From a virus, in the IMG/VR virus record IMGVR_UViG_3300037150_000252, positions 1 to 23,260 of that record: DNA of 23,260 bases, one strand, 5' to 3'. Each line of letters begins with the position of its first letter. Positions within the stretch are counted from its first letter, which is position 1. The notes beneath the pieces are model-generated. The model ran no database searches. It saw only the letters and a program-made list of their open reading frames with translations, and was not told the origin of the DNA. Both the position numbers and the translations under genes were made by a program. Below, piece after piece: positions 195 to 22,566 of the stretch.

Positions 195-614
195 GTGAAA
201 CGCAAGCCTCTCCTATCTACCGTCGCCAAAGCACGCGCCTTCCTGGCCGCATACCGCAAAAGCGCCAACCTCACGGCCTCGGCCCGCGCGGCCGGGATCG
301 GCGTGCGCAACCACTATCGATGGATTGAGGAGTACCCCGCCTACGCCGAGGCATTCAAGCGCGCGCACCTCGTGGCGCGGCAGTTTCTCAAAGACAAGGC
401 AATCGAGTTCTCTACGGTCGGCTGGACAGAGCCCGTATTCTACCAGGGTGTTCTGTGCGGCCACGTGAAGCGGCGCGATAGCGGCCTGCACCAGATGCTG
501 TTGCGCGGCGCGTTCCCCGAAGAGTTCGGCAAAAAACTGGAAGTCACCGGCAAGGACGGCGCGGCCATCGACACACGGCTGGAAGTGGTGTTCGTCAAGG
601 CAACTGAATTGTGA
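195..614 (+). CDS. Phage HTH protein, terminase-small-subunit-like
   Basis: From GTG 195 the protein has 139 residues starting VKRKPLLSTVAKARAFL. Residues about 12-50 contain an HTH-like block (ANLTASARAAGIGVRNHYRWIEEYPAY), the pattern of phage terminase-small-like and transposase-type DNA-binding domains. The C-terminal part (LHQMLLRGAFPEEFGKK, then VTGKDG) resembles the 'LLKarrPEkyg' tail common in phage small-terminase-like proteins. The same frame is open upstream to 57, but that extension crosses the micro-gene and has unlike, low-complexity composition, so GTG 195 is preferred. A second, P27-type small terminase lies beside the large terminase at 5578, so this protein may be a DNA-binding paralogue or regulator rather than the packaging subunit. 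A perfect hairpin follows the stop. Confidence 0.75.
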   Translation: MKRKPLLSTVAKARAFLAAYRKSANLTASARAAGIGVRNHYRWIEEYPAYAEAFKRAHLVARQFLKDKAIEFSTVGWTEPVFYQGVLCGHVKRRDSGLHQMLLRGAFPEEFGKKLEVTGKDGAAIDTRLEVVFVKATEL

Positions 615-621
615 GAGCGGA

Positions 622-648
622 GCTGGAGGAGGGCGGACCTCCTCCAGC
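622..648 (+). terminator. Perfect 11-bp hairpin after the HTH gene
   Basis: Eight bases after the TGA at 612-614, GCTGGAGGAGG (622-632) pairs without mismatch with CCTCCTCCAGC (638-648) around the loop GCGGA. No T-tract follows, so it is not a canonical intrinsic terminator. It could be a 3'-end stabiliser, a Rho-assisted stop, or the 5' arm of the structured repeat starting at 670. The second repeat copy is also preceded by a weaker GGAG/CTCC stem, at about 20572-20592. Confidence 0.55.
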
Positions 649-669
649 CATCAGCAGTTTGCTCGCATC

Positions 670-824
670 CGGTTCCAGTCTTATAACGAGCAGCTTCCCA
701 ACCTGTCCGCCCAGGTTATCGGGTTGCCTCTAGGTCTGCACCAACTGGATTCGGCAGACTCACACCGCCCGGAACAACAGCTTGCGTTCAAGGTTTGGCG
801 CGGCGGGGGTGGCCCCGCAAGCCA
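670..824 (+). ncRNA. Structured repeat, copy 1 (candidate ncRNA or leader)
   Basis: This 155-nt segment recurs at 20598-20750. By hand alignment I count about 13 substitutions and one 2-nt indel, roughly 90% identity. A consistent fold is visible: GTTCC 672-676 with GGAAC 771-775 closing a multibranch; ACCTG 701-705 with CAGGT 712-716, flanked by CCC 697-699 and GGG 721-723; GTCTGC 734-739 with GCAGAC 754-759. A separate 3' hairpin has TGGC 796-799 with GCCA 821-824 and inner stem 803-808 with 813-818. It ends 10 nt before the ATG at 835. The indel would shift any reading frame through it, so it does not look coding. I do not recognise it as a named riboswitch or ncRNA class. It may be a cis leader, an independent small RNA, or a mobile non-coding element. 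Confidence 0.7.
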
Positions 825-834
825 CGACTATACC

Positions 835-1110
835 ATGAGAGCCGAGTTCCCCGAAAAGTTCGCCTTCCTGCATCCAGAAGGCGAAACCGTGGCAGCGCCC
901 TGCATTGTCGAATTGCCTCGCGTTTCCGAACCGGCAACCCTGGCCGACACCATGCGAGACCAGCTCGATTTCTTGGTCGACGTGCAAGAACGTGGGCTGG
1001 CGACCGCCGAACAAGTCAACCGTATCTGCCGAGTGATGCGGATACTCCTCGAACCATTCGAAGTAAAACGCAAGGGGGACCAGCCCCAAACCCCAGCTCG
1101 TTTTAGCTAA
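835..1110 (+). CDS. Hypothetical protein, 91 aa, downstream of the structured repeat
   Basis: ATG 835 lies 10 nt after the end of the structured repeat, and the frame runs to TAA 1108-1110. The product starts MRAEFPEKFAFLHPEG and has a probable helical C-terminal half (TMRDQLDFLVDVQERGLATAEQVNRI). Codon use is GC-rich at third positions, like nearby genes. The frame is also open upstream to 724, but that extension would read through the repeat, so 835 is chosen by analogy with the gene after the second repeat copy. No Shine-Dalgarno sequence is visible before the ATG in either case. I do not recognise a family. A 144-codon open frame lies on the opposite strand, but it runs across both gene and repeat and looks like a shadow. 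Confidence 0.55.
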   Translation: MRAEFPEKFAFLHPEGETVAAPCIVELPRVSEPATLADTMRDQLDFLVDVQERGLATAEQVNRICRVMRILLEPFEVKRKGDQPQTPARFS

Positions 1111-2602: not shown

Positions 2603-2995
2603 ATGCCAGCAGCCCCTAGCCGTCCCTGTAGTAAGCCAGGCTGTATCAATCTCAACTGCACTGAGCACAGCGCATCCAAGTCCTACGACCAGGCCCGGCG
2701 CCGCGCTCGTCACTCGGACCCCGAGCGTGCTCCAGGCTTAGGCAGATACAACACAACGCGCTGGCGTCAGGTGCGGGAGATCGTGCTGGCGCGCGACCTG
2801 ATTTGCGTGGTGTGCCGAGAGGAAGCCGCGAACGAAGCGGATCACATCGTTGCAATCGCGCGCGGCGGCGAAGTTTGGGATCTGAGCAACCTGCAGGGCC
2901 TGTGCGCGAGCTGCCACTCCAAAAAAACTCGGCGTGAGGGCGCGACGGGGGTGGGGCCTTCGCTTCCCACTTCTCGCCGGGCATGGAGCCGATAG
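2603..2995 (+). CDS. HNH endonuclease (phage packaging-associated type)
   Basis: From ATG 2603 the product has 130 residues beginning MPAAPSRPCSKPGCINLNC, the usual start of small phage HNH proteins that sit near terminases. An AGGA lies 8 nt upstream. The core shows C68-x2-C71, His81 in EADHIVAIARGG, Asn96 in LSNLQGLC, and C101-x2-C104 followed by His105. That is the zinc-braced beta-beta-alpha metal nuclease with complete key residues. In HK97-like phages such proteins assist terminase cleavage at cos ends. Here it is separated from the terminase genes by the ParB and minus-strand cluster, so a homing or free-standing role is also possible. The frame is open back to 2447, but that part is low-complexity and overlaps the att-like core. 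Confidence 0.88.
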   Translation: MPAAPSRPCSKPGCINLNCTEHSASKSYDQARRRARHSDPERAPGLGRYNTTRWRQVREIVLARDLICVVCREEAANEADHIVAIARGGEVWDLSNLQGLCASCHSKKTRREGATGVGPSLPTSRRAWSR

Positions 2996-3032
2996 GCTCA
3001 CGCGTAGGAAAATCTGCGAAATTGGAAATTCG

Positions 3033-3617
3033 ATGAAGAAACCGGAAAAGCTCGCGCCCGTCGCCCTGCTCGCAATCGAGAAGTGGCCGATTGAGCGTGT
3101 TATCCCATACGCGCGCAACGCGCGGCAGATCGGCCAGACGGCCATCGCCAAAGTAGCCGCATCAATCAAGGAATTCGGCTGGCGTCAACCCATCGTAGTC
3201 GAGCCGGACGGCGTGATCGTGGTGGGGCACGTGCGCTTGCTGGCGGCGCAAAGCCTGAAGCTCGTGGAAGTGCCGGTGCACGTCGCGAGCGATCTGAGCA
3301 AGGCGCAGATCAAGGCGTACCGGATGATGGACAACCGCTCGCACGACGAAGCGAAGTGGGACATGCAGCTCGCCGGCCTGGAACTCGCGGACCTGAACGC
3401 GCTGAACTACGATCTCAAGCTCACCGGGTTCGACAAGCTGCAAGCGCAGGAAGCCTTCCTGAAGGACTGGGAAGAAGAGCCAAAAGCGAAGGCCGAGCCG
3501 GGCGCCGGCGGCCTGGAATTTCGCGTCATCGTGACCTGCGTGGACGAGAACCAGCAGACGGAGCTGCTCGACCGCTTCGAAGCCGAGGGGCTGAAGTGCA
3601 AGGCGCTGATCTCCTGA
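3033..3617 (+). CDS. ParB/sulfiredoxin-fold nuclease-like phage protein
   Basis: The 194-residue protein starts MKKPEKLAPVALLAIEKWPI at ATG 3033. Residues about 20-90 form a ParB N-terminal-type domain: IPYARNARQ, an alternating strand-helix region ending WRQPIVVEPDG, and the hallmark GHVRLLAA at 65-72. The block AYRMMDNRSHDEAKWDMQLA (95-114) is the conserved 'DNR..e..WD' segment of this family. The tail (about 150-194) is a short alpha/beta stretch. No HTH of a true partition ParB is visible. Phage members often sit by terminase or methyltransferase genes and may bind or cut DNA or act as CTPase-like switches. It is one base from the ABC/GNAT gene, so the two are co-translated. Bases 3315-3377 recur in a distant gene at 16000-16062. 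Confidence 0.82.
   Translation: MKKPEKLAPVALLAIEKWPIERVIPYARNARQIGQTAIAKVAASIKEFGWRQPIVVEPDGVIVVGHVRLLAAQSLKLVEVPVHVASDLSKAQIKAYRMMDNRSHDEAKWDMQLAGLELADLNALNYDLKLTGFDKLQAQEAFLKDWEEEPKAKAEPGAGGLEFRVIVTCVDENQQTELLDRFEAEGLKCKALIS
3315..3377 (+). repeat. ParB-gene segment recurring at 16000-16062
   Basis: These 63 bases code for the segment centred on NRSHDEAKWDMQLA. They match 16000-16062 at 56 of 63 positions by my count, in the same reading frame. The stretch TCGCACGACGAAGC is identical in both. It is native here, where it continues a complete ParB-like domain. Confidence 0.85.
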
Positions 3618-3618
3618 C

Positions 3619-4725
3619 ATGCGGATCGATCTCGTAGTCCAGTCCGAAATTTCCCGCTCGGGGCGCGTGCGCCAACTGGAAGCCATGTTCGATGTGCCGC
3701 CGGCCGAGAAATCGCGGATCGAATGGCGTGGGGAACTGCCCATCGAAGCGGACGACTGGAACGTGGGTCTGATCGTGGGCCCCTCCGGGTGCGGAAAAAC
3801 CAGCATCGCGCGGCAGTGCTTCGCCGAGCGCTTCCACCCCGAGATGGACTGGAAAGCTGGCTCGGTGGTGGACGACTTCGCTAAGTCCTCCAGCATGCAA
3901 CAGATATCGGGCGTCTGCCAGGCGGTCGGGTTCAACACGATTCCGGCCTGGATGCGGCCCTTCGCGGTGCTCTCGAATGGCGAGCGCTTCCGCGTGGAGC
4001 TGGCGCGCCGCCTCCTGGAGCTGCCGGACCCGATTGTGGTCGATGAATTCACCAGCGTGGTGGATCGCCAGGTGGCCCAGATCGGCTCCCACGCCGTGCA
4101 GAAGTACGTCCGCAAATTCAAGCGCAAGTTCGTCGCCGTCTCGTGTCACTACGACATCGTGGACTGGTTGCAGCCGGATTGGATCTTCGAGCCGGCCACG
4201 ATGCACTTTGCGCGGAGGTCGCTTCAGCGGCGCCCAAGTCTCGATGTCACGGTCTGCCGCGTGCCCTACTCCGCTTGGAAACTGTTCGCTCCGTTTCACT
4301 ATCTGACCGGGGAACTGCATCGCTCGGCCCGCTGCTTCGGGCTGTTCGTCGGGGATCGCATCGCGGCCTTCGCGGGGATACTGCCCAAACCGGTGAGCCG
4401 GGGGGCGAATGCCGGCGAAGCCATTCGCGGGGTGTCGCGTGTCGTGACGCTGCCCGACTGGCAGGGGTTGGGGCTGGCCTTCGTGCTTCTCGATAAATTG
4501 GGCGCGGCGTACAAGGCGACCGGGCTACGGTTTCGGAACTACCCGGCGCATCCGGCTTTCGTGCGCTCTCACCAGCGCAGCGCGGCATGGTCCCAAATCA
4601 CGGCCGCCGGGCAATTCTCGACGGCGAGAGCGGGCACGGGATGGGGCGGGCGCGCTTGCGGGGTGTTCGAGTATCGCGGGGATGCCCTCCCGCTCAGGGA
4701 CGCGCAGCGCCTCCTGGCCGCGTGA
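3619..4725 (+). CDS. ABC-type ATPase fused to GNAT acetyltransferase domain (COG2401-like)
   Basis: The 368-residue product has an ABC ATPase domain at about residues 40-200. It shows Walker A GPSGCGKT (54-61), the signature-like LSNGE (118-122), Walker B PIVVDEF with catalytic Glu143, and a switch His177 in SCHYD. No membrane segment or permease partner is present. Residues about 205-368 look like a GNAT fold (FGLFVGDRIAAFAGIL, then a middle strand SRVVTLPDWQGLGLAFVLLDKL resembling the acetyl-CoA loop). The order ATPase then acetyltransferase matches the COG2401 fusion class, whose substrate is unknown. ATG 3619 follows the ParB-like stop by one base, so both are probably made together. The last 32 bases overlap the convergent ASCH gene. 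Confidence 0.82.
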   Translation: MRIDLVVQSEISRSGRVRQLEAMFDVPPAEKSRIEWRGELPIEADDWNVGLIVGPSGCGKTSIARQCFAERFHPEMDWKAGSVVDDFAKSSSMQQISGVCQAVGFNTIPAWMRPFAVLSNGERFRVELARRLLELPDPIVVDEFTSVVDRQVAQIGSHAVQKYVRKFKRKFVAVSCHYDIVDWLQPDWIFEPATMHFARRSLQRRPSLDVTVCRVPYSAWKLFAPFHYLTGELHRSARCFGLFVGDRIAAFAGILPKPVSRGANAGEAIRGVSRVVTLPDWQGLGLAFVLLDKLGAAYKATGLRFRNYPAHPAFVRSHQRSAAWSQITAAGQFSTARAGTGWGGRACGVFEYRGDALPLRDAQRLLAA

Positions 4726-4978: not shown

Positions 4979-5120
4979 GGCGCGTCCACCTCCATACGGA
5001 GGATTGGGGCGCGCGCAGCGTCTTGGCTTCGCGGGTCAGGACGACCAGGCCGCTTTCGTCGCGGGCCTCGATCAGATACAGGCCGGTCACTTGGTAGCTG
5101 GTTGCGATTGAGATTTTCAT
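4962..5120 (-). CDS. Small hypothetical protein, 52 aa
   Basis: On the minus strand ATG 5120 opens 52 codons ending in TAA at 4962-4964. The product reads MKISIATSYQVTGLYLIEAR and continues DESGLVVLTREAKTL, which suggests two or three short beta strands. A perfect GGAGG sits 8 nt before the start. It overlaps the ASCH gene start by 17 nt and follows an 8-bp hairpin that separates it from the DUF932 remnant. No family is recognised. The ribosome binding site, overlap and codon use make it a probable real gene. Confidence 0.65.
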   Translation of the reverse strand: MKISIATSYQVTGLYLIEARDESGLVVLTREAKTLRAPQSSVWRWTRHAAVR

Positions 5121-5138
5121 GGTTTTGCCTCCGAAGTT

Positions 5139-5158
5139 GGGGGCGGCTGCCCGCCCCC
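5139..5158 (-). terminator. Perfect GC hairpin in the minus-strand cluster
   Basis: GGGGGCGG (5139-5146) pairs with CCGCCCCC (5151-5158) around a 4-nt loop, flanked by GAAG and CTTC. It lies between the DUF932 remnant and the 52-aa gene. Without a T-tract it is probably a partial terminator or an mRNA-stabilising processing hairpin. Being symmetric, it would form on either strand. Confidence 0.55.
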
Positions 5159-5166
5159 GCTTCGAT

Positions 5167-5424
5167 CTAGCTGGCCAGCTTGCGCATTTCCTCGGCCAGG
5201 GTCCACAGGGCTTCCGCGATGCGGGTGCGGGACTGAGACGCGGCCACGGGGAGAAAGCCCTCGCTCCGCATCTTTTCCACGACTTGAATGGTGGGAATGA
5301 ACGCGTAGCGCGCGCTCATCTTGTCCCAGGGCTGGGTGGCGAACACGGACGGGGCCGTGCGCATCAGTTGGTCGTTCGTCAGTGGGGTATTGCCGCGTGT
5401 AATACTGCTCGTTAGATTCATCAT
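5167..5424 (-). pseudogene. DUF932-family protein, internally deleted (85 aa)
   Basis: ATG 5424 (ATGATG) with GGAG about 8 nt upstream opens 85 codons. Residues about 14-68 match the N-terminal signature of the phage/plasmid DUF932 (TIGR03299-like) family: 'L..aPSVFA..PwdkmSarYaFIPTiqvve.mrseGf.pv.asQSRtRi'. Full members run a few hundred residues, continuing after SRTR into a conserved 'f.kH.iRfR' region. Here SRTRIA runs straight into AEALWTLAEEMRKLAS and stops, a sequence that looks like a family C-terminus. An in-frame internal deletion is the simplest reading. The intact start and stop, and the overlap with the next minus-strand frame, leave open a functional mini-protein. Confidence 0.7.
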
Positions 5425-5579
5425 TGGGTGTCTCCAGTGTTGAGTTTAGAGATCCAGGGCGGCTCCAACCGCTTCTGGATCTCGCTTACAAAACAATCAT
5501 AGGACGCCAGCCTGCGGAAGCCAAGGACTTTACCACCTTTGGTCTGAAGGACATCCGCTCCTCCCTTCCGATAACTCAT
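5421..5579 (-). CDS. Possible small protein, 52 aa, first of the minus-strand cluster
   Basis: Starting at ATG 5579, the frame reads MSYRKGGADVLQTKGGKVLG and then FRRLASYDCFVSEIQKRLEPPW. It ends in a TGA that overlaps the ATGA start of the DUF932 remnant, a typical coupling. Without this gene the 153 bases between the DUF932 start and the small terminase would be empty. The start overlaps the divergent small-terminase ATG on a shared CATG, and no Shine-Dalgarno precedes it. A GGGAGG inside the frame instead precedes an out-of-frame ATG with only 22 codons. Moderate-to-low support. Confidence 0.4.
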   Translation of the reverse strand: MSYRKGGADVLQTKGGKVLGFRRLASYDCFVSEIQKRLEPPWISKLNTGDTQ

Positions 5580-6114
5580 GCGCGGACGCAAACCCAAGCC
5601 CACCGAGCAGCAAATCGTCTCGGGCGACCCGCGAAAACACGGGGTGAACAAGCTGAGAGCGAAGCTCGCCGGCGAGCCGAAAGCATCGCGCGGATTGCCC
5701 GCCTGCCCGCGTCACCTGAAGGCGCGCGCACGGTATGCCTGGAATTTTTGGGCGGAGGAACTGGCGGCGATGAACCTGGACCGCAGGCCGGACGCCATGA
5801 TGCTCGAAGGGGCTTGCGTAGCTTACGAAGAGGCGATTTACGCCTACGAGATTTTGCAAAAGCAGGGGCGGCTGATCGCCAAGCGCGCGGTGGACCCGAA
5901 GACCAAAGAGATAGTGGTTTTGGATGTGAAGCGCCATCCGGCGACGGTCATCGGGCACAAGGCCTGGATACAGCTTCGCGCCTTCTGTTCCGAATTCGGA
6001 CTCTCTCCAGTGAGTCGCATTCGGCTGACTATCGACAGCGCCAAGGAAACCGAGCAGGATTTGATGGCCATGCTATCCCAGCCCCGCCAGCCGAAACAGA
6101 CGACCGTGCAGTAA
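5578..6114 (+). CDS. terS: Terminase small subunit, P27 family
   Basis: The 178-residue protein opens with MRGRKPKPTEQQIVSGDPRK, the diagnostic start of P27-family small terminases (basic 'GRkPkPt...l.Gnp.k'). It continues with a helical core that includes ARYAWNFWAEELAAMNLDRRPD and a helix pair ending KHPATV-type (residues about 115-145, RHPATVIGHKAWIQLRAFCSEFGLSPVSRIRL). The 'fGLtPaSR.Rl' motif is conserved in the family. It recognises the packaging site and feeds DNA to the large subunit. ATG 5578 has no Shine-Dalgarno; the start is fixed by the family N-terminus. A minus-strand gene lies between it and the large terminase, which is unusual for this pair. Confidence 0.93.
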   Translation: MRGRKPKPTEQQIVSGDPRKHGVNKLRAKLAGEPKASRGLPACPRHLKARARYAWNFWAEELAAMNLDRRPDAMMLEGACVAYEEAIYAYEILQKQGRLIAKRAVDPKTKEIVVLDVKRHPATVIGHKAWIQLRAFCSEFGLSPVSRIRLTIDSAKETEQDLMAMLSQPRQPKQTTVQ

Positions 6115-6116
6115 AC

Positions 6117-6162
6117 GCGCGGCGCAGGTAGTGTCTCGCATGTCGCCGAAAGTGCGCTGCGC
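6117..6162. terminator. Hairpin between convergent terS and a minus-strand gene
   Basis: GCGCGGCGCA (6117-6126) pairs with TGCGCTGCGC (6153-6162), ten pairs including one G-U, closing a 26-nt loop. It begins two bases after the terS stop and lies before the minus-strand stop at 6181, so it could serve as a bidirectional 3' end. No T-tract is present. Confidence 0.4.
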
Positions 6163-6180
6163 GGCTGATGGCCCCAGTCG

Positions 6181-6363
6181 TTAACCGGTGGCCGTGTGAG
6201 TCTTTTCTCCGGTCGCAGCCCATAAATTCTGGGAGCGCATTTCGTCGATGAACGATCCGAACGTCGGGTCTTTCACGGAGTGATCGTACAGCAGTCCGGC
6301 CTCTCGCGCATCCAATCCGGGGATGCTCGCGGCCAAAACGTAGTTGATGAACTTCTGTTTCAC
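6181..6363 (-). CDS. Small hypothetical protein, 60 aa, inverted between terS and terL
   Basis: GTG 6363 is preceded by AAAGGAG with 6-nt spacing, an excellent ribosome binding site that decides this start over a TTG at 6384. The product begins VKQKFINYVLAASIPGLDAR and continues EAGLLYDHSVKDPTFGSFIDEM. It is soluble and probably mostly helical, with no recognised family. It faces away from terL, with 38 bp between the two starts, and converges on terS. An opposite-strand small gene in a packaging operon is typical of a moron, expressed independently of the late genes. No clear promoter is seen. Confidence 0.6.
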   Translation of the reverse strand: MKQKFINYVLAASIPGLDAREAGLLYDHSVKDPTFGSFIDEMRSQNLWAATGEKTHTATG

Positions 6364-6401
6364 TGAAGCTCCTTTCGCCTCCAATCATAGCGCCAACCGA
6401 C

Positions 6402-8063
6402 GTGCCTTTCTCCCAACAGCACGCGGACGCGGCCTGCAATTTCTTCGAGTTAGTACTGAAACACTCAGCCGACGAATGGTGGGGCAAGCCGTTCGTGCTG
6501 GCCCCGTGGCAGGAGGAAGTACTCCAGCACGTCTTCGGAAACCTGGACGACGAGGGCAACCGCGTGATCGAGCAGGTGTATCTCGAAGTGCCGAAAAAAG
6601 CGGGCAAAACCGAATTCGCGGCGGGCCTGGTGCTCTGGGTTTCGCTCTGCACTTCCGCTCCCGGCTGCCAGGTGTACGGCGCCGCGGCGGCCACCCGTCA
6701 GGCGATGAACGTGTATCGCGCGGCCTGCAAAATGGTGGAGCAATCGCCCCTCCTGCAGAAACAGTTCCGCATCCTCAGAGGCACGAACAGAATCCTGAAG
6801 CGCTCGGACCCGGACAGCTTCTACGCGGCCATAGCGGCGGACGGCGATCTGGGCGACGGCGTGAACCCGGCCTTCGTAGTGGCGGATGAAGTCCACCGCT
6901 GGAAGACGCGCAAGCAGCAGGAAAACTGGGACGTGCTCTCAAAGGGTGGCATCACCCGGCGCCAGACCTTGACGGTGGCCATCACCACGGCGGGCGTGCA
7001 GAGTGAATCTCCGCTGGCATGGCGGCTGCACGAAAAGACGCGCAAGATCCAGGAAGGCATAGTTTCGGACGCGCGCTTTTTCGGCCGCCTTTACGGCGCG
7101 GAAAAAACGGACGACCCGGGCGATCCGAAAACCTGGATCAAGGCGAACCCCTCGCTGATCGAAAACGGCGGCTTCCTGCCCCTCGCGAAGATCGGCAAGG
7201 AGTACGCCTCCGCGCTTTCCGAAGGCACGCTGACCGCGTTCAAGAGATATTTTTTGAACATCTGGGACCAGCAGGAAGACCGGGCCATCGACATGGTGCA
7301 CTGGGATGCCTGCCCCACGGATTGGATTGCGGCGCCGCTGCGGTCGAAGCTGCCCGAAGACAAAGTTCGGAGACTCCCCGAGGGGCTGCTGAAGCGCTTC
7401 ATCGAAAGGCGCTGCTGGGCGGGCGTCGATCTCTCCATGACCACGGATCTATCCGCCGTGGCCTTCGTGTTTCAGATTGACGGTTATGGACCGGCGCTTG
7501 AACCCCAAGTTCATTATGAAGTCCTGCCGTTCTTCTGGATGCCCAAGGAAGCGGTAACTAAGCTTCAGTGCAAAGACGGCATGCCCTATGAGCGCTGGGT
7601 GGAAGAAGGATGGATTGAAACCTGCCCAGGAGCCTGCATCGACTACCGGGATGTCGAAGAGCGGTTGAAGTGGGGCGCGGAAATGTTCGACGTGGAGCAG
7701 TTCTGCTGGGACCCCTACAACTCGCATCAGATCTCAGTGCCGATGATCGAAGCGGGCTATCAGTGCATGGATGTGAAACAGGGGCTCGTTACGCTGCATG
7801 AGCCGACGAAGAAGATCCTGGAACTGATCGCACAGCATAGATTGCACCACGGCAACCACCCGGTGCTGCGGTTCAACGCCTCGTGTGCCTCGTTGGTGCG
7901 GAAAAACGATCTCATCATGTTCAAGAAGCCGGACAGGGAGAAGGAATCGAGCAGGATGGATGGGATCTCAGCCACCGTGGACGCATTGACAAGAGCTATT
8001 TTGTTCGAGCATCAGCCGAAGTACCGGAAGTCCATCTTTGATAGCGGGACGGTGGTTTTGTGA
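6402..8063 (+). CDS. terL: Terminase large subunit (ATPase/nuclease)
   Basis: The 553-residue motor protein starts at GTG 6402. N-terminal ATPase: Walker A VPKKAGKT (63-70) and Walker B FVVADE (158-163) with catalytic Glu163; the coupling segment LTVAITTAG follows at about 190. C-terminal RNase H-like nuclease: Asp343 in AGVDLSMTTD, Asp437 in CWDPYN, and a last acidic residue in the RMDGISATVDALTRA segment (520-530). This order and length fit the Terminase_1/HK97-type family, and all key residues are intact. It translocates DNA into the prohead through the portal encoded next. The stop overlaps the start of the small membrane gene at 8060. Confidence 0.96.
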   Translation: MPFSQQHADAACNFFELVLKHSADEWWGKPFVLAPWQEEVLQHVFGNLDDEGNRVIEQVYLEVPKKAGKTEFAAGLVLWVSLCTSAPGCQVYGAAAATRQAMNVYRAACKMVEQSPLLQKQFRILRGTNRILKRSDPDSFYAAIAADGDLGDGVNPAFVVADEVHRWKTRKQQENWDVLSKGGITRRQTLTVAITTAGVQSESPLAWRLHEKTRKIQEGIVSDARFFGRLYGAEKTDDPGDPKTWIKANPSLIENGGFLPLAKIGKEYASALSEGTLTAFKRYFLNIWDQQEDRAIDMVHWDACPTDWIAAPLRSKLPEDKVRRLPEGLLKRFIERRCWAGVDLSMTTDLSAVAFVFQIDGYGPALEPQVHYEVLPFFWMPKEAVTKLQCKDGMPYERWVEEGWIETCPGACIDYRDVEERLKWGAEMFDVEQFCWDPYNSHQISVPMIEAGYQCMDVKQGLVTLHEPTKKILELIAQHRLHHGNHPVLRFNASCASLVRKNDLIMFKKPDREKESSRMDGISATVDALTRAILFEHQPKYRKSIFDSGTVVL

Positions 8064-15472: not shown

Positions 15473-16971
15473 GCGCCTGGGAGCATCCGGCGACATACTG
15501 GAATCACCACACGGTGCGCGAGTTGGAGCGCGATTCCATCCGCGAGTTTATGACGCGCAACCGGCACTTGCTGTGTGGCCGCGTGCTGGACTTCGGGGCG
15601 GGGAAGCCGGGAACGTGCCGGGAGCCACAGCCATATCGGCATTTAGTCGAAGGCGAATACGTGCCCTACGACAAGGGCGATGCATGGCCGCGTGGACCGT
15701 TCGATGCGGTGATGTGCAACCAGGTCTTTCAATATCTGGAAGATCCAGTATCGTGGGCGCACGCGCTGCTGATGGCCCTGAAGCCGGGCGGCCACCTGGT
15801 GATGACGTACGCGACGAACTGGGAGGAATGCGAAGCCAGTGACCTGGCCCGATTCACAAGGATCGGGATGGATCGGCTTTTGAAGTCGGTCAATTTTGAG
15901 ATCCTTGGCCACGAGCGCCGTGCCTCGATCAACCTGGGCGGCTTCCAATTTGCGCTGGGCTATGGTGTAGTGGCGCGGAGGCGATGTACGACGGTTCGCG
16001 CGTACCGGCTGATGGCCAATCGCTCGCACGACGAAGCCAAGTGGGACATGCAGCTTGCGGCCGGCGGATACACGCGCCCGAGGATCGACGAGAGCGCAGC
16101 CGTCCTTGCGGCGCGGTCAGATTGGCCGATGTACACGCGCCTGGGCATCGACGAGAGCGCAGCCTTCCTCACTGCCAAGCTGAAGTGGCAAGCGCCGTTT
16201 TTATTCCTCCGCTATGGCGATGGAGCCATAGAATGCATCAACGGCCTGGGGAAAGGGCAGACTTGCGACGGCGAGAAGTATTCCCCCGATCTGGCGCGGG
16301 GCATGCGGCAAGCCTGGGACGATGTCGTCCACTCGACCATCGGCAGCTATGTCGGCCTGGGGTTTGTTATGGATATGTCAGCGTATAATGCGGGCCAGGA
16401 CCCAAACTGCATTGGCGATTGGCGGTTCTCGGGTGCTTTCGGCGGCCCGCAAATCTACATCGGCGATTGGCTTTCGGCTTCTTTCGGTGCCAACCGGTCC
16501 ACGGAATATCGCGCGGAATACGACCGGCTGATCGGGGATGCCAATCTCAACTTTCTGCACTTCGAAGCGCTGCTTCTGACGCGCGAGTCCCGCGAGCTGC
16601 TGGATTTCTATAAGGCGGTGAAGGCGGACACGCGGCGCAAAGTCTATCTGGGACCGGCGGCGCACGCACCGGCGGCCAAGATGCTCGGCTGCGAGCACGT
16701 CGTCACGCCCATGCGGGATCTGCTGGCATGCGCGGATTCGATCTATGACAAACTGGCGGGCAATCCGTTTGATGTCCTGCTGTGGGCCGCTGGCATGGCT
16801 GGGACAATCCCGGTAGTGAAGCTCTGGGAGGCATTTCCCGGCCGCACCTACATCAATCTGGGGAGTGCCATGGACCCGTTAACGCGGAGCGCCACCGAGC
16901 CGCGCGGATACACGAGAAGCGGGCAATTAACGCACGCACAGGCAAAGGCGTTCTTCCATGAACTGCTCTGA
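15454..16971 (+). CDS. Methyltransferase / GT-D-type glycosyltransferase fusion with a ParB-derived insert
   Basis: The 505-residue protein from ATG 15454 has three parts. Residues 1-179 are a class I methyltransferase: VLDFGAGKPGT, FDAVMCNQVFQYLEDP, LKPGGHLVMTYATNW, ending GYGVVARRR as such domains usually end. Residues about 181-203 (VRAYRLMANRSHDEAKWDMQLA) are a near-copy of a segment of the ParB-like protein at 3033-3617. Two copies of a 21-residue unit starting YTR and containing IDESAA follow (206-247). From about 248 a GT-D/DUF1792-like domain begins (FLFLRYGDGAIECINGLGKG; later RKVYLGPAAHAPAAKMLG and FDVLLWAAGMAGT). It may be one bifunctional enzyme or a recombination chimera. A TTG at 15433 is an alternative start. 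It overlaps both neighbours. Confidence 0.75.
   Translation: MAETAVSAWEHPATYWNHHTVRELERDSIREFMTRNRHLLCGRVLDFGAGKPGTCREPQPYRHLVEGEYVPYDKGDAWPRGPFDAVMCNQVFQYLEDPVSWAHALLMALKPGGHLVMTYATNWEECEASDLARFTRIGMDRLLKSVNFEILGHERRASINLGGFQFALGYGVVARRRCTTVRAYRLMANRSHDEAKWDMQLAAGGYTRPRIDESAAVLAARSDWPMYTRLGIDESAAFLTAKLKWQAPFLFLRYGDGAIECINGLGKGQTCDGEKYSPDLARGMRQAWDDVVHSTIGSYVGLGFVMDMSAYNAGQDPNCIGDWRFSGAFGGPQIYIGDWLSASFGANRSTEYRAEYDRLIGDANLNFLHFEALLLTRESRELLDFYKAVKADTRRKVYLGPAAHAPAAKMLGCEHVVTPMRDLLACADSIYDKLAGNPFDVLLWAAGMAGTIPVVKLWEAFPGRTYINLGSAMDPLTRSATEPRGYTRSGQLTHAQAKAFFHELL
16000..16062 (+). repeat. In-frame copy of a ParB-gene segment
   Basis: This stretch matches 3315-3377 at 56 of 63 bases by my count, in the same reading frame and giving the same NRSHDEAKWDMQLA core. 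It lies exactly at the junction between the methyltransferase domain and the glycosyltransferase part. No complete ParB domain surrounds it, so it is a transplanted fragment. Confidence 0.82.
16069..16194 (+). repeat. Two tandem 63-nt units inside the fusion gene
   Basis: Unit 1 (16069-16131) and unit 2 (16132-16194) both start TACACGCGCC and share ATCGACGAGAGCGCAGCC. They encode YTRPRIDESAAVLAA and YTRLGIDESAAFLTA. Beyond these blocks the units have diverged, so the duplication is not new or was patched by recombination. Confidence 0.8.
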
Positions 16972-19568: not shown

Positions 19569-20567
19569 ATGTCAACAAGTCTCTGCGCACTCCAGGATGT
19601 AAAGACGTGGCTCGCTATGGGCGCGGCTGCATCGAGCGACGACAGCCTCATCACGGGACTGATTGTAAATGTTTCCACCGACTTCCTGAATGAGATCCGG
19701 CGGCCGGATTTCACCCCGGCTCAGAATTACAACGAAGTGCGGGAAGGCGACGGCGGCGATTTGATGGTGCTGAGGCACTGGCCCATCAATTCCATTGTGA
19801 ACCTTTCGCAGATCGGGGCTGGTGGCTCGCCTCCGCTCACCGGGTCATCGATTGACCAGGCCAGCGAGACCTATACGCTGGGGCAATTCCAGACGGATCC
19901 TCCGCAGTACAGTTTCACTGTCTCCAATGCCGCAACGTTCATGTACGATGGGCCGCCCGGCCCCGAGAATTCCCTGCCCGCCGTGGTCTCGGTATCGACC
20001 GGCTTGCCCTTCGCTTACATTTCGCAGGGGCCTCTTCAGCAGAGTCAATACAGTGTCAATCCTTCAACTGGCACCTACACATTCTCGGCTGCGGACGTAG
20101 CCGCGAAAACGCAGGTGGTCATCAGCTACACCTGGTTCAACCTGGGAGGCCTGAGTGCCATCCCGGAATCCGCCAACGACGTGGCACCGGGCTGGTGGAT
20201 CGATTCGGATGTGGATCCGGAGCGCCGGTACGAACTGTATCTCGACGGAAAGGTCTTCATTTTCGTCGACGAACGGGAATACTCCATTACCTACAACGCG
20301 GGATATGCAGCCGTTCCTCCCGATGCGGCACAGGCCGTAATCGAGTGGACGGCACAGCGCTACAAGTCTCGGATGAGCATCGGACAGACCAACATCCACC
20401 AGGTGACTGGCGAAACGGTGACCACACCCGAAAGCGAGATTCCGTTGTCGGTCAAGAGGGTAATCGAACGGTACCGACGGTATGATCCGCTACAAACGCC
20501 TCCGGAGCGAGTGGCCTTGCTCGATATGAGCAAGAAACTGGATTTGGCTAAGGCGCGGAAGCGGTAA
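19569..20567 (+). CDS. Second gp6-like connector protein with inserted beta domain
   Basis: The 332-residue protein opens with LCALQDVKTWLAMGAAASSDDSLI and ends with EYSITYNAGYAAVPPDAAQAVIEWTAQRYKSR, the start and close of a gp6-like connector. These two halves are separated by about 130 residues. The insertion (about 110-195) contains FTVSNAATFMYDG, LPFAYISQGPLQQSQYSV and GTYTFSAADVAAKTQVVISYTW. A related segment is found in the tail tube protein at 21796-22566. Two adjacent gp6-like proteins could be an adaptor and a stopper, or this one may carry an exposed decoration. A structured repeat follows the stop instead of the tight spacing seen elsewhere. Confidence 0.72.
   Translation: MSTSLCALQDVKTWLAMGAAASSDDSLITGLIVNVSTDFLNEIRRPDFTPAQNYNEVREGDGGDLMVLRHWPINSIVNLSQIGAGGSPPLTGSSIDQASETYTLGQFQTDPPQYSFTVSNAATFMYDGPPGPENSLPAVVSVSTGLPFAYISQGPLQQSQYSVNPSTGTYTFSAADVAAKTQVVISYTWFNLGGLSAIPESANDVAPGWWIDSDVDPERRYELYLDGKVFIFVDEREYSITYNAGYAAVPPDAAQAVIEWTAQRYKSRMSIGQTNIHQVTGETVTTPESEIPLSVKRVIERYRRYDPLQTPPERVALLDMSKKLDLAKARKR
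20076..20135 (+). repeat. Coding segment shared with the tail tube gene
   Basis: These 60 bases match 22261-22320 at 50 positions by my count. The first 22 and last 15 bases are identical, and both copies encode YTFSAAD-x-AAKTQ then ISYTW. Protein similarity extends upstream (NAA, then 'QYS'), so a whole beta segment is shared. Confidence 0.8.
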
Positions 20568-20597
20568 ACCGAAGGAGCGGCGGCCCACCTCCGGCTA

Positions 20598-20750
20598 CGG
20601 TTCCAGTCTTATAACGAGCAGCTTCCCAACCTGTCCGCCCAGGTCATCGGGTCGCCTAGGTCTGCACCAACTGGATTCGGCAGACTCACACCGTCCGGAA
20701 CAACAGTTCGTTTTCAATGTTTGGCGCGGCGGGATGGCTCCCGCAAGCCA
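20598..20750 (+). ncRNA. Structured repeat, copy 2 (candidate ncRNA or leader)
   Basis: This 153-nt segment is the second copy of the element at 670-824. All main helices are kept: GTTCC 20600-20604 with GGAAC 20697-20701, the ACCTG/CAGGT hairpin, GTCTGC/GCAGAC, and the 3' hairpin (TGGC 20722-20725 with GCCA 20747-20750). In that hairpin the closing pair A20734-T20739 replaces G808-C813 of copy 1, a compensatory change. The tetraloop differs completely between copies (TGGC here, GTGG there). It ends 11 nt before ATG 20762. The position right before a start codon, without a Shine-Dalgarno, is the same in both copies. Confidence 0.7.
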
Positions 20751-20761
20751 TAAGAATAAGT

Positions 20762-21250
20762 ATGGTCCTCTTTACCCTCGATAAGACCTCCGTCGATTCC
20801 ACCGTCTCCTACATCGATCATCTCCAGGAACGCATCCTGGTGGGCGTCCGGGTGGGAATGAAGGACGGGGTCAAAGGGCTGGCACAAGCCGAAGTGGAAG
20901 CGGCAGCGGCGCATCCATCGGACCCTCGGAGCAAGCCCAACGACATGCTTGCCAACATCCTGGGCAGATCGGGAAGAGTGATCGAAACGGACGACGATAT
21001 CAATGCCATCTACAAGCCCAGGAACGCAGGCAAGCAAGCCCATTACTGGCTGGAATATGGCTATCACGTGCCCGCCGTCGGGAGCACAATTATGAACATG
21101 ATCGTGGGCATGCGCGCCCCTGGCGTGTATCGGGCGCACAAAGAATTCTCCGTACCTGCCCGGCCCTTTTTCTTCAGTATTGGCGAGGGATACCAGGGGC
21201 AGTTCTTCGAGAAGATTCAGGCGCGCGTTCGGGAGGCCATGAGTGCCTAG
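20762..21250 (+). CDS. HK97 gp10-like head-tail / tail-completion protein
   Basis: The 162-residue protein starts at ATG 20762, just after the structured repeat. An N-terminal helix (TVSYIDHLQERILVGVRVGMKDGVKGLAQ) is followed by AHYWLEYGYHVPAV, then a beta segment and VPARPFFFSIGEGYQGQFFEKIQARVREAM. 'vpArPFl...' followed by a terminal helix is the usual end of gp10/neck proteins, which seal the head-tail joint. Identification rests on that pattern and on position between connectors and tail terminator. The frame is open upstream to 20717, but that would read through the hairpin. Confidence 0.65.
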   Translation: MVLFTLDKTSVDSTVSYIDHLQERILVGVRVGMKDGVKGLAQAEVEAAAAHPSDPRSKPNDMLANILGRSGRVIETDDDINAIYKPRNAGKQAHYWLEYGYHVPAVGSTIMNMIVGMRAPGVYRAHKEFSVPARPFFFSIGEGYQGQFFEKIQARVREAMSA

Positions 21251-21795: not shown

Positions 21796-22566
21796 GTGCC
21801 CAATTATCAGTTCGGCAGCGGCGTTCTCGTGGCAGTTCCGAACGCCGGAAACCTCGCAGCCAATCCCACGCCCTATATGGTCGGCACCCTTCAGGAGTGC
21901 AACATCAACGTCAAAGGCGACATCAAGAAACTCTGGGGCCAACAGCAAATGGCCGTTGCCAAAGCGCGCGGCAAAATCGATGTGACATGCAAAGGCAAGT
22001 TTGCCACCCAGGACCCCACCATGCTGAATCAGCTCTACTGGGGACAGACCCAGACCACCGGCATGCAGATCTTGGCAGCCAACGAAGCCTGGACCATCGG
22101 CGGCGGATCGCCTCCCGCGGCCACCGTCACAGTCACTAACGCAGCGAATGCCACCACCGATTTTGGTGTCCTGAATGCGGCTACCGGGCAGCAGTTTCAA
22201 AAGGTCCCAGGCACGCCCGCTATCGGCCAGTATTCCGCGCCCACCCCGTTTCTGGGCGTATACACATTCTCGGCTGCGGACGAAGCGGCCAAGACCCAGA
22301 TCTATATCAGCTACACCTGGCTGAATGCCGCCCGCGGCACCACCGTCGCTCTGGTGAACCAGTTCATGGGCTACGCGCCGGAATTCCAGGCGTTCCTGTT
22401 CAACTCGTTTCAAAGCCAGATCATGGGCATTCAACTGAATTCATGCATGATGGGCACGTTCTCCATCCCCACCAAGCAAGAAGACTTTTGGATTTCCGAT
22501 CTGGAATTCGATGCCTCTTGCGATGCGGCTGGCGTGCTCGGTTACATGTACGCGGACCTCGGTTAA
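21796..22566 (+). CDS. Tail tube (major tail) protein
   Basis: The 256-residue protein starts at GTG 21796 with AAGGAG about 10 nt upstream, after a 61-nt spacer. The N-terminal QFGSGVLVAVPNAGNLAANPTPYMVGTLQECNI is typical of tube proteins ('G.g.....~g..~P.~iG.l..v.'). KGDIKKLWGQQQMAVAKARGKIDVTCKGKFA forms the tube beta-barrel segment and loop. A beta insertion (about 120-180) holds VYTFSAADEAAKTQIYISYTW, shared with the connector at 19569. The C-terminus (FSIPTKQEDFWISDLEFDASCDAAG) returns to the tube fold. Position before the G/GT chaperone is canonical. Confidence 0.85.
   Translation: MPNYQFGSGVLVAVPNAGNLAANPTPYMVGTLQECNINVKGDIKKLWGQQQMAVAKARGKIDVTCKGKFATQDPTMLNQLYWGQTQTTGMQILAANEAWTIGGGSPPAATVTVTNAANATTDFGVLNAATGQQFQKVPGTPAIGQYSAPTPFLGVYTFSAADEAAKTQIYISYTWLNAARGTTVALVNQFMGYAPEFQAFLFNSFQSQIMGIQLNSCMMGTFSIPTKQEDFWISDLEFDASCDAAGVLGYMYADLG
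22261..22320 (+). repeat. Coding segment shared with the connector gene
   Basis: This is the partner of 20076-20135. The bases TACACATTCTCGGCTGCGGA and the following CG are identical in both genes, as is ATCAGCTACACCTGG at the end. It codes for the last strands of the shared beta insertion. Confidence 0.8.

Follow-up and report, generated by a model that had tools for sequence, protein, structure and literature searches.

A short phage repeat with a conserved, branched RNA fold that may be a small insertion element

A short element with a branched, covarying fold was identified in tailed phages, where it is repeated, occupies a gene junction that is empty in close relatives, is accompanied by a target duplication at one site and lies at unlike positions in different phages. 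With moderate confidence we take it to be a non-autonomous insertion element, about 150-210 bases long, whose branched RNA fold is under selection; its mobility is suggested by the one duplicated target together with the unlike positions. The analysis started from the window, meaning the whole stretch of DNA under study, an IMG/VR virus record of 23,260 bases (IMGVR_UViG_3300037150_000252).

The window contains two copies of the repeat, at 670-824 (copy 1) and 20598-20750 (copy 2), which are 92% identical. The RNA core of copy 1 (668-773, plus strand) comprises a closing helix P1 (668-672/769-773), a long hairpin P2 (688-705/712-730, with a 3-nt bulge at 718-720) and a hairpin P3 (733-739/754-760) with its loop at 740-753. 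This fold is common to copy 1 and to two diverged loci, L013 (contig G009, 75% identity over 102 bases) and L073 (contig G029, 74% over 116 bases), and P1 is identical in the three (UCCGG/CCGGA). The core of copy 2 (20596-20699, plus strand) presents a mismatch in P1, an outer P2 helix damaged by a 2-nt deletion and one A.C pair in P2; its minimum-energy fold alone lacks the consensus, the P1 and P2 pairing being partly lost. Four distinct cores are known in total, from three independent lineages. In all four, neither the 14-base loop of P3 (ACCAACUGGAUUCG) nor the 5' strand UCCAGU (674-679, plus strand) varies, the loop having been part of the search patterns that recovered L013 and L073. The 5' strand is complementary to ACUGGA (744-749) in the loop, and a pseudoknot between them is possible, being suggested by complementarity rather than by covariation.

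Base changes that preserve the fold indicate that the fold matters. Between copy 1 and L013, eight pairs of P2 and P3 are changed on both sides, seven of them still pairable, and none on a single side; between copy 1 and L073 all eight double-sided changes are pairable and three are single-sided, one of which still pairs. None of 20,000 trials reached the L013 figure and none of 20,000 the L073 figure when the same number of changes was placed independently and at random starting from copy 1, the two comparisons sharing some pairs and so not being independent of each other. The four cores were also aligned on sequence only (alignment A1), the structure tested being drawn after the same sequences had been viewed. 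For P2, P3 and the proposed pseudoknot, 93% of the cells are paired and nine pairs are changed on both sides, with 13 such cells. Of 500 shuffled alignments none equalled the real one in pairing, in the count of such cells or in covariation score, 7 reached its number of changed pairs and 26 its number of pair types; sliding the partners as a control lowered the pairing to 27-46%. RNAalifold recovered P2 and P3 unaided and offered an alternative closing helix (GUUCC/GGAAC). Copy 1, L013 and L073 each fold singly to P1, P2 and P3, with modest scores (z -1.0, -1.9 and -1.1).

The core is flanked by hairpins at the two ends. The preliminary description had seen selection on RNA pairing in the 3' hairpin, and the sequence bears out both copies, the hairpin, and a top pair that differs between the copies over five identical pairs. 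In copy 1 (796-824, plus strand, with outer pairs 796-799/821-824) the stem 803-808/813-818 reads GCGGGG/CCCCGC and is topped by G808-C813; in copy 2 (20722-20750, plus strand) the stem 20729-20734/20739-20744 reads GCGGGA/TCCCGC and is topped by A20734-T20739. Each hairpin is predicted as the fold of its own stretch, with only a moderate advantage over shuffled sequences (z -1.6 and -2.3). The changed pair is one event across two copies, and a selection signal above chance was not confirmed there; selection on pairing is borne out by the covariation of P2 and P3 in the 5' core, and not by the single changed pair. In L021 (contig G014), which carries a third version of copy 1, the apex is different and longer (CGGGGCC-actt-GGCCCCG), so the 3' hairpin is retained while its apex varies. 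The 3' hairpin beside the core of L073 (12419-12504) is very stable (z -6.0). At the left end of copy 1 a further hairpin, P0 (GCTGGAGGAGG/CCTCCTCCAGC, 622-648, plus strand, z -5.5), was identified, with a counterpart in L013 (z -2.9) and weak ones in L073 and copy 2.

When IMG/VR was scanned with patterns and protein patterns, 15 records besides the window proved to contain the element: nine of the copy-1 type, five of the copy-2 type (G007 having both) and the two diverged contigs. The window and G007 contain two elements each and every other record one. Copy 2 was identified in five contigs from five metagenomes (3300047539 among them) and copy 1 in two metagenomes, L013 and L073 coming from two more. 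L013 lies between convergent genes; it comes after a gene with a Tlde1 domain, and phrog_2293 is the convergent gene whose end it faces. The neighbours of L073 are both on the opposite strand, which makes the element antisense to each. The L013 contig has no other DNA in common with the window and matched none of 24 window proteins (27.7 of its 32.7 kb being covered). Matches of 6-7 bases that might represent a target duplication at L013 and L073 have no clear placement. No credible copies came from INPHARED phages or PLSDB plasmids, where there were only weak matches of 22-42 bases, and two exact patterns were absent from species genomes, which excludes those exact strings only. The P3 loop alone, as a pattern of 15 bases, occurred in at least 119 viral stretches; among the loop matches listed, 109 new loci (L074-L182) were filtered and scanned with a covariance model, with no match. 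The element is rare in the searchable data, as would hardly be expected if it were active, and a description of it was not found in the open-access literature, which is not searchable by structure.

The clearest site of insertion is the terS/terL junction. Searching with the G014 large terminase (Terminase_3) gave 21 loci; L051, L052, L053 and L061, with TerL 91-99% identical over the matched part, lack the element, and their terS and terL overlap as GTGA. In the window the left target copy GTGAGAGCGGAG (611-622, plus strand), which contains the terS stop (612-614) and aligns to the empty sites of L052, L053 and L061 (..GCGTGAGAGCCGAGTTC..), is followed by about 212 inserted bases and then by the right target copy ATGAGAGCCGAG (835-846, plus strand) at the terL start. 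Each target copy has 11 of the 12 bases of the empty site. The left-hand match beyond the terS stop has no coding need and is therefore hard to explain except by duplication. The whole insert of copy 1 would extend from 623 to 834 (plus strand), with ends uncertain by a few bases and with the first base of P0 overlapping the left target copy. Empty versions are known in these four loci, and filled ones in the window and nine other records. The ATG at 835 occupies the place of the terL GTG start; insertion with duplication of the overlap would by itself put an ATG at the end of the element.

The ten copy-1 records differ in what follows the element. It stands directly before terL in two (G002 and G014), is separated from terL by a second insert (element 2) in five, and is followed by just the first terL codons in three (the window, G006 and G007); the reading frame at 835 in the window holds the first 12 only. 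In L012, a record with element 2 before terL, an ATA replaces the first ATG. A relative of element 2 lies alone at the terS/terL junction of L054, where a clear duplication is absent.

Element 2 is also represented elsewhere in the window. The 70 bases at 2513-2582 are identical to its first part (for example L003 5893-5962), which is located before terL in five related records and is 85% alike in L054; the stretch sits just upstream of an HNH endonuclease start at 2603 and constitutes a second dispersed junction element. The window contains two terminase modules, one at 57-1110, with the small subunit phrog_4044 and what is left of terL (12 codons), and another at 5578-8063, where the pair is complete (phrog_83; TerL_ATPase and TerL_nuclease), and resembles a mosaic of two phage types. 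Small gains and losses are frequent in this phage population, the window segments 81-195, 2365-2448, 2798-2996, 2962-3931 and 5074-5374 each being absent from at least one close relative.

Copy 2 fills a gap of 194 bases from the head-tail connector gene, which ends at 20567, to a gene at 20762, and its likely full extent is 20568-20761 (plus strand), the repeat proper being 20598-20750. In a distant relative, Brevundimonas phage Strzyga (ON529867), there is a one-base overlap between the homolog of the connector gene (24% identity) and the gene after it. This junction was equated with the copy 2 site by synteny only: the similarity of the next gene to the gene at 20762 is not significant, and the gene pair that follows is related (34%). 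A target duplication was looked for at copy 2 and none was found. An in-frame ATG lies at 20717 within copy 2, which makes the start of the gene at 20762 uncertain. A coding repeat of 65 bases, 82% alike, was identified between 20076-20140 in the connector gene and 22261-22325 in the gene at 21796.

As a small insertion element, it would have entered the GTGA stop/start overlap of terS and terL and duplicated about 12 bases, by which terS would keep its stop codon and terL its start codon; this would explain why it ends just before an ATG. Movement would depend on a transposase or recombinase supplied in trans. In the proposed fold P1 would close the junction of P2 and P3, the 5' strand would probably pair into the P3 loop, and variable end hairpins would flank the core. 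The fold may act as RNA and not as folded single-stranded DNA; the element would be part of the late transcripts, where it would uncouple the translation of terL from that of terS, and could perhaps be a processing or stability signal. Against insertion, a target duplication is identifiable at only one of the four sites. The ends CTGGAGGAGGGCGG.. and ..GACTATACC are not inverted repeats and no terminal inverted repeats are visible; this, together with a copy number of at most two per genome (the window and G007), is why the element is not classed as a MITE.

Several known systems are comparable in part. The YPAL/RU-2 repeats of Yersinia, as described in PMC2229807, are non-coding sequences of 168 bp, not A+T-rich, with internal and not terminal inverted repeats, target duplications of 3-26 bp and known empty and filled sites. 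The phage element shares with this description its small size, the lack of coding, the internal inverted repeats, the base composition and the empty and filled sites, and terminal inverted repeats are not required there either; it differs in its location in phages, its branched core, invariant loop and covariation across diverged lineages, and in a target duplication that is seen at one site only. The same paper presents ERIC of enterobacteria and CIR of Caulobacter as intergenic repeats of 127 bp or similar with RNA folds, ERIC being reported to alter the stability of neighbouring transcripts and CIR consisting of two arms and a linker (PMC2229807). These are folded intergenic repeats as well, likened here by that description and not by sequence, whereas the architecture and the phage location are different. 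The MPME elements of mycobacteriophages (PMC3029335) are very small and disrupt phage genes by insertion, closely related phages being free of them; MPME1 measures 439 bp, has an inverted repeat on its left side and brings 6 additional bp at the insertion. The very small size, the insertion in phages and the absence from close relatives are shared, but the present element has about 212 bp, no terminal inverted repeats and a target duplication in place of the extra 6-bp sequence.

A serious rival to the insertion element, although we consider it rather unlikely, is a stand-alone small RNA gene of phages, spread by ordinary recombination and acting in trans as a regulator, decoy or anti-defence RNA, with the 12-base duplication arising from joining and not from transposition. 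It would account for a core that is kept whatever the neighbouring genes and orientation, for end hairpins that are present though unrelated in sequence (that of L073 being very strong) and for a P3 loop and 5' strand as invariant as a binding site would be. It does not sit well with the surroundings of the copies, where neither a consensus sigma-70 promoter nor a sense-strand U-tailed terminator was found (consensus search gave neither around copy 1, and around copy 2 one terminator-like site on the minus strand, with a shuffle mean of 0.5), and two copies in one genome at tight gene junctions, with a target duplication, look more like insertion.

A more speculative version, to which we give a low probability, is a so far undescribed class of mobile structured RNA in tailed phages in which the RNA itself would be the mobile unit: the three-way junction with a pseudoknot into the invariant 14-nt loop would be recognised by an RNA-binding or reverse-transcribing partner that copies the RNA into gene junctions, with a target duplication that spares both neighbours. 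A reverse transcriptase domain (PF00078) was found in none of 13 records.

It is improbable that the pairing was selected in DNA, as a folded single-stranded site used in packaging or by an integrase or Y1 transposase. A tyrosine integrase gene (1308-2402) is located near copy 1, and IS200/IS605 genes occur in two related contigs; however, of the 13 records searched an integrase is missing from 10 and a TnpB domain from 11, no DNA match connects the element with the IS605 copies, and G-U pairs within the helices (the outermost of P3 in all four cores and one in P2 of L073) favour pairing as RNA over pairing as DNA. The contigs concerned are G006, with two IS200/IS605-like elements (L192 3463-5030 and 8915-10378) with TnpB and a Y1-like transposase reading frame recognised by eye, and G007, with a broken TnpB at 43434-43629.

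The omega RNAs and reRNAs of IS200/IS605 TnpB and IscB, and HEARO, are structured RNAs with a pseudoknot that are tied to mobile elements. The phage element is similar in being a structured RNA with a possible pseudoknot and in the presence of IS605 genes in two related contigs, and differs in having no Rfam match and no adjoining TnpB gene and in being unlike the IS605 copies of G006. A TnpB omega RNA was rejected as its identity, BLAST and a covariance model having found no link between the element and these copies. Rfam release 15 gave no match at gathering score in the whole window, copy 2 included, and so none to a self-cleaving ribozyme, and permissive scans of copy 1, L013 and L073 gave only weak, unrelated matches below gathering; ARAGORN identified no tRNA or tmRNA gene in the window.

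The preliminary description had proposed a cis-acting translational leader, or an element replacing the ribosome site, at a fixed distance before the downstream ATG, which we now hold to be quite improbable. In its favour, both window copies are in sense direction and stop short of an ATG (10 bases before 835 for copy 1, 11 before 20762 for copy 2) with no Shine-Dalgarno by a simple rule. The fixed distance stands at these two sites and fails elsewhere: L013 and L073 have no nearby start codon downstream on the same strand, and in five of the ten copy-1 records element 2 intervenes before terL, L012 having ATA for the first ATG. A riboswitch or leader would always be upstream of the regulated gene and in its sense, which is not so at L013 and L073, and closeness to a start codon is thus not a property of the family. 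The preliminary description had named placement at random relative to genes as contrary to a leader, and this is the placement at two of the four known sites. Close relatives with nearly the same terL have no element at all, and the overlapping terL start in relatives likewise has no Shine-Dalgarno in front. By the same simple rule, with start codons chosen by us, a Shine-Dalgarno is present at 10 and absent at 13 of the 23 window starts examined, so an ATG without one is ordinary in the window.

Two other identities were rejected. A protein origin does not fit the differences by codon position in the frame of the ATG at 835 (7/11/8 in one comparison and 9/15/7 for L073), which show no excess at third positions, nor a copy 2 that is shorter by 2 nt, though copy 1 and L013 are open in that frame. 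The two copies flank most of the window; prophage attachment repeats were discarded on the phage genes found on both sides of the copies and on the solitary state of each copy in other records. A coding repeat of 59 bases, 92% alike (AYRxMxNRSHDEAKWDMQLA), was also identified, at 3315-3373 in a ParB-like gene and at 16000-16058 in a methyltransferase-like ORF.

Chance, or an assembly artefact in which mosaic contigs of one sample mimic repeats and rearrangements, is scarcely credible: many copy-1 records do share a single metagenome (3300047539) and differ in segments gained or lost, but the copies come from the separate metagenomes given above, and assembly cannot create covariation, by which an artefact is already refuted for the fold.

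The element is a candidate structured RNA that Rfam 15 does not cover and in which two diverged phage lineages show double compensatory changes. The terS/terL site documents how a short insert can enter an overlapping stop/start pair with both genes spared. If the element is mobile, small folded repeats such as YPAL and ERIC, known from bacteria, would have a counterpart in phage genomes; if it is instead a stand-alone RNA, it would be a new phage RNA whose partner may be traceable through the invariant loop.
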